Positions 2,920-6,279 of a DNA stretch of 38,976 bases are shown here, in pieces; within the stretch, counting starts at the first letter, position 1; every line of letters starts with the position of its first letter. Origin of the DNA: Altererythrobacter sp. (GTDB lineage Bacteria > Pseudomonadota > Alphaproteobacteria > Sphingomonadales > Sphingomonadaceae); contig JABDKI010000035.1 in NCBI GenBank assembly GCA_013002295.1, positions 1 to 38,976 of the forward strand, read 5' to 3'. A program made the position numbers and the translations under genes. A model generated the notes under the pieces. The model saw nothing but the letters and a program-made list of their open reading frames with translations, had not been told where the DNA came from and did no database searches.

Positions 2920-3585
2920 ATGAGCATCTTTGCATTTCTTTCCAAACGCCCGCTGCGCATTGCGCTGGCAGGTGCTGCCCTGTGCGCGATCCCCGCATCA
3001 ATCGCGACGACCGCTCCTGCCATCGCGCAGTCCGAAGCGGGTGATCTGAACCGTGCCGTCAGCGCGCTGCGCCAGATCGCCACGCTAAAGGCCGATTTCT
3101 CGCAAACTGATCGTTTGGGCCAAACCGCCGAAGGCGTGCTGACGCTGAAACGCGGCGGCAAGATCCGATTCGACTATGGCGAAGATCAGGATTTGCTCGT
3201 CATATCCAATGGCCGCTCGCTCTACCTCGTCGATTATGAGGTGAATCAGGTTCAACGCTGGCCGATCCGCAATTCGCCCTTGGGCGCATTGCTTGATCCG
3301 GAGCGCGACATCACCCGCTATGGCAAGCTGGTTCAAACCGGCAATTCCGATGTGATCAGCATCGAAGTGCGCGACCCGAAGCGCCCCGAATTCGGCATGA
3401 TCAATATGATCTTTGTGCGCGACGTGACAGCCCCTGGTGGGCTGGAGCTCAACACCTGGGTTGCGCTTGATGCGCAAAACAATCGCACAACCGTGCGGCT
3501 AAGGAATCACCGCTATGGCGTGTCTGTTCCCGACAGCACGTTCCAATTCCGCGATCCTCGCCGCTCATCTCGTCGCCCACGCTGA
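2920..3585 (+). CDS. lolA: Outer-membrane lipoprotein carrier protein LolA family
   Basis: Signal peptide followed by LKADFSQTDRLGQTAEGVLTLKRGGKIRFDY; typical LolA fold signatures. Start assigned to the ATG at 2920 rather than the GTG at 2884. Confidence 0.88.
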   Translation: MSIFAFLSKRPLRIALAGAALCAIPASIATTAPAIAQSEAGDLNRAVSALRQIATLKADFSQTDRLGQTAEGVLTLKRGGKIRFDYGEDQDLLVISNGRSLYLVDYEVNQVQRWPIRNSPLGALLDPERDITRYGKLVQTGNSDVISIEVRDPKRPEFGMINMIFVRDVTAPGGLELNTWVALDAQNNRTTVRLRNHRYGVSVPDSTFQFRDPRRSSRRPR

Positions 3586-3639
3586 ACGCTTCGCCCGCGC
3601 AAGGTTGTAAGAACGCGACAGAGCGCTGTGCGCCATTCA

Positions 3640-3798
3640 TTTACGTGAAAGCTGAGAAGGGGTAGTCTTTTCTTGTGAACCGGACGAAGGCAGGTTTCCC
3701 CCCTGTTGCCTCAACCTTCATCGAAGTGCGGTTCATCCAAGCGTGACGAACGCTAACTAGGAACCCTCGTGCCAATGCCCCCGGCGCGAGGGTTTTTT
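3640..3798 (+). ncRNA. Candidate structured small RNA (5' end not defined)
   Basis: Non-coding interval with successive stems: TGAACCG(3676-3682)/CGGTTCA(3729-3735) enclosing GAAGG/CCTTC and CAGG/CCTG around a C-rich loop; AGCGT(3740-3744)/ACGCT(3750-3754); then an intrinsic terminator. Confidence 0.5.
3764..3798 (+). terminator. Rho-independent terminator
   Basis: CCCTCGTGCC(3764-3773) pairs with GGCGCGAGGG(3783-3792), 10 bp with one G-U, followed by TTTTTT. Confidence 0.88.
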
Positions 3799-3827
3799 GT
3801 TATGCCTCGTGTTTTCCGCACTCGCCT

Positions 3828-3872
3828 CCGCGAGCGCGATTTCCTCGCGGCCTGCGGACAAGTCCGCGCCGC
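3828..3872. repeat. GC-rich extragenic palindrome cluster (REP-like candidate)
   Basis: CCGCGAG(3828-3834)/CTCGCGG(3844-3850), plus an overlapping stem GCGGC-CT-GCGGAC-AA-GTCCGC-GCCGC (3847-3872). Confidence 0.5.
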
Positions 3873-3946
3873 TGCGGGCGGCCGGTCGGCCTTGCGGTCT
3901 ATCTACAGACAGCCCGATCCAGTTCTTAGAGGATCACCTTGGTCTC

Positions 3947-5380
3947 TTAGTCATCCCAACCAAGCGCGTTGACGATAATGTCATAAACTACATTCTGCTC
4001 GATCACGCCGCGCACGCGATCTGCACCTGGGCCCTGGCCGTATAGCGCAACATCTTCGCCGCCATGCGTTTCGCTGCGTGTAGGGATCGCTGCCTGCTGA
4101 TGCGCATGGACACCCGTTTCAGGGATCGGGCGTTCCGCCAGATTTGCAATTGCGCCGGGGCCATTCTGGTATCCAAGGGTGGTGTATGGCTTGCCATCAG
4201 TGGCAGTGGTCGCCTCCGCAAGTTCAGCCGAACCACCTTCAGGCGACACCACAAGGCCCAGAATGTCATTTCCGCGCCTAGGATAGCCCGACATCGTGAA
4301 GACATGGCTGTGGTCAGCGGTCACCAGAATGAGCGTTTCTTCAGGGTTGGTATTCTCGATCGCATACTGAATCGCATTGGCGAACTCGACCGCTTCTTCC
4401 AATGCATACCCGGCCTGCCCGGCATGGTGCCCGTGATCGATCCGGCCCGATTCCACCATCAGATAATAACCTTCGGGGTCATCCTTAAGCCGCGAGATCG
4501 CTTGCTCTGTCATTTCCGTCAGCGTCGGCTCGGTCGAATCTTTGGTCCGGTCCACTGTATAAGTCATATGGCTGGGCGAGAAGAGCCCCAACACCGGCTT
4601 GTCGATGGGTGCGGAGGCGAGTTCGGCTGCGGTCGATACAAATGTGCCGCCGGTGCGCCCGCTCCATTCCGCTGGCAAATTGGCATCGGAAGCGATCCTG
4701 CGTCCGCCAAGATCAGCACCATAGAACGCCGCCTGGCCGCCGCCCAATGCGACGTCGAATGTGCTGCCCACCAACTGCGCCGCGATATCATCGCACCCTC
4801 TGCCGCGCTGGTCTTCTGGAATGGCGGAGTCGGCTTCCCAGCCGCGATCCGGACTGCGCGAGTATACACTGGCCGGGGTCGCATGCGTAATCCGTGCGGT
4901 CGACACGATACCAAGCGCAAGCCCTCGCTCGGTGGCTGACTCGCCAAAAATTGGCAATGCATTGGCCAGTCCACTTTCGCAATCGCCCGCCACAACATCC
5001 GGGCCAACACCCAGCACGCCGATCTTGGTCTTGACGCCTGTGTGCATCGCGCTTGCTGTGCCCGCACTATCGGGCACCTGAGCATTGCTGTTATAGGTTT
5101 TTACGAGCGCAACATTTTCGAAATTCTCGAACGGCAGGACATATTCCTCACCGCTCTGACCTTTCTTCTGGCCGGCATATATACGCGCGGCAGTGACCGT
5201 GGAAACACCCATGCCATCACCGATAAACAGGATGATGTTCTTCGCCTTGGGCTCAGGCACCTCTGCTGGCATTGCCGAGGCGCTGGCAACCTCGCTCTGC
5301 CCATATCCAGCGGGCGAGCATGCAGCCAACGGAAAAGCCATTGCAGCTGCAAGTGAAAGCGCGCGGCGCGATGTCGTCAT
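3947..5380 (-). CDS. Alkaline phosphatase (PhoA family), predicted lipoprotein
   Basis: KNIILFIGDGMG, VPDSAGTASAMHTGVKTK, ESGRIDHGHHAGQ, VTADHSH motifs; N-terminal LAAC lipobox-like sequence. Confidence 0.93.
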   Translation of the reverse strand: MTTSRRALSLAAAMAFPLAACSPAGYGQSEVASASAMPAEVPEPKAKNIILFIGDGMGVSTVTAARIYAGQKKGQSGEEYVLPFENFENVALVKTYNSNAQVPDSAGTASAMHTGVKTKIGVLGVGPDVVAGDCESGLANALPIFGESATERGLALGIVSTARITHATPASVYSRSPDRGWEADSAIPEDQRGRGCDDIAAQLVGSTFDVALGGGQAAFYGADLGGRRIASDANLPAEWSGRTGGTFVSTAAELASAPIDKPVLGLFSPSHMTYTVDRTKDSTEPTLTEMTEQAISRLKDDPEGYYLMVESGRIDHGHHAGQAGYALEEAVEFANAIQYAIENTNPEETLILVTADHSHVFTMSGYPRRGNDILGLVVSPEGGSAELAEATTATDGKPYTTLGYQNGPGAIANLAERPIPETGVHAHQQAAIPTRSETHGGEDVALYGQGPGADRVRGVIEQNVVYDIIVNALGWDD

Positions 5381-5484: not shown

Positions 5485-6279
5485 ATGGTTTCTATCGCGA
5501 CTTGGAATATCAATTCGGTGCGGCTGCGGCTGCCGATTGTTGAACGGTTTCTGGAAGAGGAAGCACCCGATGTGCTGTGCTTGCAGGAAATCAAATGTCA
5601 GGAGCACCAGTTTCCTGCGCAGGCGCTGGCTGATGCGGGCTACAAGTATCAGGCGATCCATGGTCAAAAAGGTTATCATGGCGTCGCAACGATCAGCCGA
5701 ATTCCATTGAAAGAATTCAGCCGCCATGACTGGCAGGCCAATGGCGAGGCGCGCCATGTCGGCGTCGAATTGCTCGGCCCGGGCAAGGGCATGGTGCTTG
5801 AAAACGTCTATGTGCCAGCCGGTGGAGACGAGCCGGACCGCGAGAAGAATGCCAAATTTGGGCAAAAGCTGGACTTTCTAGGCCGCATGATCGGCTGGGC
5901 AGACAAGATTGACCGCCCAACCATGATTGTGGGCGATTTCAACATTGCACCGCTCGAAAGCGATGTGTGGAATCACAAGCAATTGCTCAAGGTTGTCAGC
6001 CATACCCCTGTTGAAGTGGATACGCTCGAGCAATTCAAGCAAGCCCATGGCTGGGTCGATCTGGGGCGCGAATTTATCCGCGATCCGGACCGCTACTTCA
6101 GCTGGTGGAGTTATCGTTCCAAGGATTGGAAAGTGAATGATCGCGGGCGCAGGCTTGATCATATGTGGGCGAGCCCCGAGCTGGCCGCGCAAGCCACTGG
6201 CCATCGTCTGCGCGAAGATGCGCGCGACTGGGAGAAGCCAAGCGATCATATCCCGCTGATCACGGAGTTTGCGCTCTGA
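5485..6279 (+). CDS. xth: Exodeoxyribonuclease III
   Basis: MVSIATWNINSVRLRLP, LCLQEIKCQ, VGDFNIAP and RRLDHMWASP motifs of the ExoIII family. Confidence 0.95.
   Translation: MVSIATWNINSVRLRLPIVERFLEEEAPDVLCLQEIKCQEHQFPAQALADAGYKYQAIHGQKGYHGVATISRIPLKEFSRHDWQANGEARHVGVELLGPGKGMVLENVYVPAGGDEPDREKNAKFGQKLDFLGRMIGWADKIDRPTMIVGDFNIAPLESDVWNHKQLLKVVSHTPVEVDTLEQFKQAHGWVDLGREFIRDPDRYFSWWSYRSKDWKVNDRGRRLDHMWASPELAAQATGHRLREDARDWEKPSDHIPLITEFAL

Follow-up and report, generated by a model that had tools for sequence, protein, structure and literature searches.

Small RNAs (sRNAs) with single-stranded C-rich loops have been described in several alphaproteobacteria. The general-stress sRNA GsrN of Caulobacter crescentus carries a six-C loop whose pairing with G-rich leaders has been shown experimentally, and Erythrobacter litoralis yielded no gsrN-like gene in the same study (PMC5869019). 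Among the other RNAs with which the present locus can be compared, SuhB is 61 nt long (PMC6563040) and chvR is confined to C. crescentus (PMC6237742). Here we analyze a locus within the window, the whole 38,976-nt stretch of DNA from Altererythrobacter sp., in which a first-pass annotation made from the letters alone had placed a structured sRNA between lolA and an alkaline phosphatase gene, either stand-alone or derived from the lolA 3'UTR. Our reading is that the locus is probably a stand-alone sRNA gene lying between lolA and xth, of the envelope-response type and acting in trans through its C6 loop. The features of the locus are collected in Table 1.

Table 1. Features of the lolA-xth locus (positions in the window)
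Feature	Position	Strand	Basis or remark
lolA, outer-membrane lipoprotein carrier protein	2920..3585	+	ORF; upstream neighbor of the RNA
GTTGTA-N6-CGACA block	3604..3620	+	alignment of 36 intergenic regions; same genus only
Promoter-like module TTCAT-N6-GAAAG-N11-TA	3636..3664	+	paired blocks at an 11-bp spacing, followed by a -10-like TA
Small RNA	3675..3798 (5' end inferred, +/- 3 nt)	+	covariance model, promoter TA spacing, start of helix 1
5' hairpin	3675..3736	+	outer helix 3675-3682 / 3729-3736, inner helix GAAGG/CCTTC
C-rich apical loop TTTCCCCCCTGTT, presumed seed	3695..3707	+	invariant columns; divergent genera
Hairpin AGCGT-GACGA-ACGCT	3740..3754	+	nearly invariant
Intrinsic terminator, T6 at 3793-3798	3759..3798	+	compensatory changes in 9/13 pairs, 99.9% of cells paired
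Alkaline phosphatase (phoA-type)	3947..5380	-	convergent neighbor; in many, not all, relatives
xth, exodeoxyribonuclease III	5485..6279	+	downstream neighbor, kept family-wide

A conserved structure upheld by compensatory change

The minimum free energy (MFE) structure of positions 3640-3798 contains all of the claimed stems (-58.9 kcal/mol, z = -2.9), and a single one of 200 shuffled sequences was as stable. The covariance model matches at 3672-3796 (E 2e-23), and the predicted ends give an RNA of about 124 nt. Three of the elements drawn in the first-pass annotation hold up: the TGAACCG (3676-3682)/CGGTTCA (3729-3735) helix with its nested GAAGG/CCTTC lies in the MFE structure, the GACGA hairpin is present and hardly changes among relatives, and the intrinsic terminator, described as very good, ends in the expected T6 and has pairs supported by compensatory changes. 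The CAGG/CCTG pairing proposed around UUUCCCCC does not recur in relatives, where the conserved loop-closing pairs are GG(U)/(U)GCC and UUUCCCCCCUGUU is left as an open loop. This six-C loop of the 5' hairpin is nearly invariant in the same genus, and its core CCCCCTGTT is kept almost family-wide. The terminator has a stem of 13-15 bp followed by T6, and its loop carries an invariant GCCCCC, which most of the divergent genera have as well; a generic terminator scan did not call it at 3759-3798 because the loop exceeds 8 nt. A further 8-bp hairpin at 3654-3674 appears in the single-sequence fold; it belongs to the promoter region and lies outside the RNA.

For the analysis of covariation, 68 sequences were aligned to the covariance model and compared with 500 shuffles by five measures. 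In this alignment, which was fitted to the structure model and so leans towards that structure, 96.1% of cells were paired as against 81.6% in the shuffles, 358 cells carried double changes as against 108, and none of the 500 shuffles reached any of the five measures. Both sides had changed in 28 of the 39 pairs, including every pair of the outer helix (12/12) and of the inner helix (6/6), and sliding the partners by 1-3 columns lowered the pairing to 33-50%. The outer helix TGAACCG/CGGTTCA of the window is CAAGGCG/CGCCTTG in most relatives and CAAATCA/TGATTTG in one of them (L006), and compensatory changes in the 3676-3682/3729-3735 helix, which the annotation had named as the decisive test, are thus found at all 12 outer-helix pairs. 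The bias of the alignment is offset by folding the sequences singly, which does not share that weakness: all 36 same-genus RNAs (36/36) give the same order of elements, with a median z of about -4.5, and nearly all of 30 divergent genera fold into the same architecture. The computation shows that the pairing structure is under selection by compensatory change.

There is hardly any variation in the GACGA hairpin or in either C-rich loop, and therefore the constraint on these elements is one on sequence. The GACGA loop, which reads GAAGA in L069, is similar to GNRNA pentaloops, of which boxB is an example, and could be a protein-binding element.

Distribution in the Sphingomonadaceae

By DNA search, the window's genome and 35 of 36 same-genus relatives proved to have the region, which in each of them follows lolA. 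The covariance model extended this to 385 of 401 Sphingomonadaceae genomes, which span 94 of 96 genera; with few exceptions there is a single match per genome. Thirty weak matches, each from a different genus, were all confirmed by the model (30/30); lolA and/or xth lie beside nearly all of these diverged loci, and most of them have CCCCCTGTT, GCGTGACGAACGC and the GCCCCC terminator loop in common. A pattern scan of named genomes found the RNA in Sphingomonas, Sphingopyxis, Novosphingobium, Blastomonas, Erythrobacter and relatives; its sole match outside the family, in an Allosediminivita record (L178), receives no support from the covariance model. Several genomes that give no significant match still have a diverged version behind lolA. 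The C6 tract is lost in one genus (L271) and the usual terminator loop in another (L275), though the locus is kept, and losses of this kind in a few genera are awkward for an essential seed. Together with L272, where the locus behind lolA likewise persists with a diverged C tract or terminator loop, these are natural variants.

Outside the family, one plausible diverged case adjoins lolA in a neighboring family (G060), and the model gave no match in the other sampled genomes of the order. Among about 285 alphaproteobacterial genomes from outside the family, covariance model R1 detected no homolog save one marginal match (G813, E 7e-4), which we judged spurious. On the sequences sampled, the RNA thus appears to be almost absent outside Sphingomonadaceae. 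Minus-strand matches of the model to terminators were spurious, as was a second site in G152 (L268), an unrelated hairpin. The only clear double copy is in G070, where two copies with identical scores lie near both ends of a contig (G070:C2:14700-14828 and 2573859-2573987); either a duplication or an overlap in the assembly could account for them.

The lolA frame is open from a GTG at 2884, with the ATG at 2920 as its likely start, and by tblastn a lolA ortholog adjoins the RNA in nearly all loci. The phoA-type gene is outside the sRNA unit; its insertion ahead of xth is optional, and in many relatives xth comes directly after the RNA. The GTTGTA-N6-CGACA block, a possible second regulator site, is lost in other genera. 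Downstream of the terminator, at about 3815-3900, a GC-rich stretch (CTCGCGGCCTGCGGACAAGTCCGC...GCTGCGGGCGGCCGGTCGGCCTTGCGGTC) recurs behind this terminator in several relatives (L003, L006, L010, L011, L018 and L022) and looks like a repeated extragenic element.

The Rfam scan that had been suggested as a check linked the RNA to no known family, suhB included: against the 4227 families of Rfam 15 there were 0 matches in the window at the gathering threshold, and the best weak matches of a permissive scan were at chance level (E 3.5-4.6). The conserved sequences are absent from the papers searched, a set that leaves subscription literature mostly uncovered, so that a listing among RNA-seq candidates is possible (Zymomonas Zms, Sphingopyxis dRNA-seq candidates). 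Judged by sequence, we rate the RNA as a previously uncatalogued sRNA family. A single-copy RNA in nearly all of a large and much-used family (Sphingomonas, Sphingopyxis, Novosphingobium, Erythrobacter), absent from Rfam, would give the Sphingomonadaceae a shared and directly testable sRNA.

A promoter-like module shared with exported-protein genes

Upstream of the RNA, at a distance of 10-13 nt, lies a module whose family-wide form is TTCAT-N6-GAMAG-N11-TA, with fixed spacing. Across 192 aligned loci, the distance from TTCA-N7-G[AC][AC]A[GT] to the TA is N11 in 173, N13 in 14, N12 in 4 and N10 in 1; TTCAT and TA are nearly invariant, with almost full information, and the flanks are close to random. 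The module is present even in a diverged 2.1-Mb genome (L096). Tandem half-sites with an 11-bp spacing, placed about 10 bp before a -10 element, are the layout of PhoB/OmpR-type activator sites. The starts of TTCAT and GAMAG are 11 bp apart, and 11 bp separate the end of the second block from the TA; the spacing fits this layout, although neither block is a clear repeat of the other. Upstream of the RNA there is no -35 TTG at the usual 17 bp. TTCAT/GAMAG may be read as a candidate tandem site for an OmpR/PhoB-type response regulator that would replace the -35 element. ChvI was considered as the regulator and rejected, since its published motifs (TTGC-N3-GCAA and GCC-N8-GCC; PMC9731502) do not match the module. 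Zymomonas promoters are usually of the form TTGNNN-N17-TANNNN, with a 6-bp discriminator after the -10 TANNNN (PMC7566282); from the TA at 3663 and the usual 12 nt in those promoters, the predicted start of the transcript is therefore close to 3675, where helix 1 begins.

The module also bears on the relation to lolA. In favor of a processed 3'UTR fragment or an elaborate lolA terminator with no trans role, the RNA is on the strand of lolA, begins some 90 nt beyond the stop codon of that gene and has a terminator at its end. We regard this origin as very unlikely, given that the RNA has its own promoter module with fixed spacing family-wide, that termination needs neither invariant loops nor a 5' hairpin that is long and covarying, and that in L096 the RNA is about 850 nt from lolA. 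The module begins no earlier than the lolA stop and is retained even where the end of lolA varies, so of the two origins offered in the annotation derivation from the 3'UTR is disfavored; a stand-alone structured sRNA is strongly supported by the compensatory changes, the family-wide conservation at one locus and the conserved promoter module of its own.

In 25 same-genus genomes a search for the module returned 39 matches, compared with 3 for the reversed pattern; 22 of the 39 are the RNA itself and 17 are other sites. The ten of these 17 that were translated all precede exported-protein genes, and the remaining seven match the same groups by sequence. The carriers are a cyclophilin-type periplasmic isomerase before queA, an RcnB-domain exported protein and an outer-membrane beta-barrel protein before tgt. 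In other genera the exact module is found at few places besides the RNA locus; at three of these the protein encoded next has a signal-peptide-like start, and not all of the extra sites precede exported proteins. The computation shows a conserved, predicted promoter module that the RNA shares with exported-protein genes. Its common occurrence before the RNA, the periplasmic cyclophilin, the RcnB-like exported protein and the outer-membrane barrel (L248-L257) could mark an unnamed envelope regulon of Sphingomonadaceae.

The same motif could also be the promoter of an unusual sigma factor, in which case TTCAT-GAMAG-TA would drive a housekeeping RNA that is made constitutively. The strict distance to the TA and the near universality of the RNA in the family agree with this, but the 11-bp tandem layout, the rarity of the module in the genome, the different form of the usual Zymomonas promoters (PMC7566282) and the envelope genes among the other carriers do not, and we hold it to be rather unlikely. 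With a response-regulator site as the preferred reading, the RNA would belong to an envelope-response regulon. We further propose, tentatively and at somewhat less than even confidence, that it is a core envelope-response sRNA of Sphingomonadaceae, co-activated with periplasmic-folding and outer-membrane genes by a response regulator and tuning the mRNAs of envelope proteins through the C6 loop. If true, this would give the lineage a counterpart of its own to the envelope-stress sRNAs of enterobacteria, placed beside lolA and with no sequence relative elsewhere, and the module would point to an unrecognized envelope regulon and to the regulator of that regulon.

Possible targets and mode of action

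In the mechanism that we propose, the RNA of about 124 nt, ending in a U-tailed terminator, would act in trans, with Hfq as its probable partner. Its exposed CCCCCCUGUU loop would pair with G-rich 5' leaders of mRNAs, possibly with help from the C-rich loop of the terminator, and this pairing would change the translation of the target mRNAs. The flanks of the same-genus loci hold no complement of the loop, and therefore no cis target. Pairing in trans is the likeliest mode because the C6 loop tops a covarying stem and the neighboring genes hold no complement, and we place moderate confidence in its being trans pairing with G-rich leaders through the C6 loop.

The complement of the loop is not enriched before start codons: across 37 genomes, AACAGGGGG before an ATG gave about 104 matches, compared with about 78 and 115 for shuffled prefixes. 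Lipoprotein and exported-protein starts were accordingly rejected as a target class, the shuffled prefixes giving as many matches with similar gene types. One lipoprotein gene leader, CAACAGGGGGAA (L226; G000:C91:77-97, minus strand), contains a 12-nt perfect complement of the loop over its Shine-Dalgarno sequence; it is the only such site in its genome assembly and is not distinguishable from chance. The annotation's suggestion that the C-rich loop pairs with G-rich Shine-Dalgarno sequences stands as the best mechanistic guess, with GsrN as the closer analog (PMC5869019), and finds no echo in the counts before starts.

Alternatively, the RNA may mainly titrate a protein or another RNA, its C-rich loops and GACGA hairpin serving as binding sites instead of an mRNA seed. 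The lack of enrichment speaks for such a sponge, the hairpin and both loops are more fixed in sequence than pairing needs, and Caulobacter has sponge RNAs, CrfA among them (PMC12559287). There is no candidate partner, however, and a C6 loop fits mRNA pairing by the precedent of GsrN (PMC5869019); we consider titration unlikely and retain trans pairing with mRNA leaders as the preferred reading.

Comparison with known systems

Like suhB/alpha-r8 (SuhB of Sphingopyxis, SisA-D of Caulobacter), the RNA is an sRNA found in sphingomonads, but it is about twice as long as the 61-nt SuhB and is not matched by the Rfam suhB model. ChvR, made in Caulobacter under the ChvG-ChvI envelope system, resembles it in having several stem-loops and in being driven by a regulator, both the regulator and the envelope link being putative for our RNA; it differs in its locus, and the published ChvI motifs differ from the module here.

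The cuckoo parallel drawn in the annotation does not extend to membership. The cuckoo/CcsR RNAs (CIN1 locus, Rhodobacter and others) likewise have hairpin loops rich in C with which G-rich leaders could pair, and the two such loops and the alphaproteobacterial host would suit an anti-Shine-Dalgarno RNA of this type. Yet 3580-3800 holds no CCUCC, the RNA lacks the CCUCCUCCC motif and tandem copies, being single copy, and its promoter and neighbors are different: these are lolA and phoA/xth, with no DUF1127 gene seen beside it, as judged by the identity of the neighbors. We consider membership extremely improbable. At the level of sequence, the locus has what a terminator-ended sRNA gene should have, namely its own promoter, a conserved structure and a Rho-independent terminator.

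By description, the closest likeness is to GsrN. Both are alphaproteobacterial RNAs of about 100-120 nt with a 5' hairpin, a C6 loop as the most conserved part and a 3' terminator, and the six-C loop in a 5' hairpin that characterizes GsrN is present here. In contrast to GsrN, our RNA has no EcfG-type promoter (GGAAC-N15/18-[CG]GTT has no match in 3501-3700), is located between lolA and xth and not near general-stress-response (GSR) genes, and has the extra, nearly invariant GACGA hairpin. The best reading is that the RNA falls outside GsrN membership and may nevertheless work as GsrN does.
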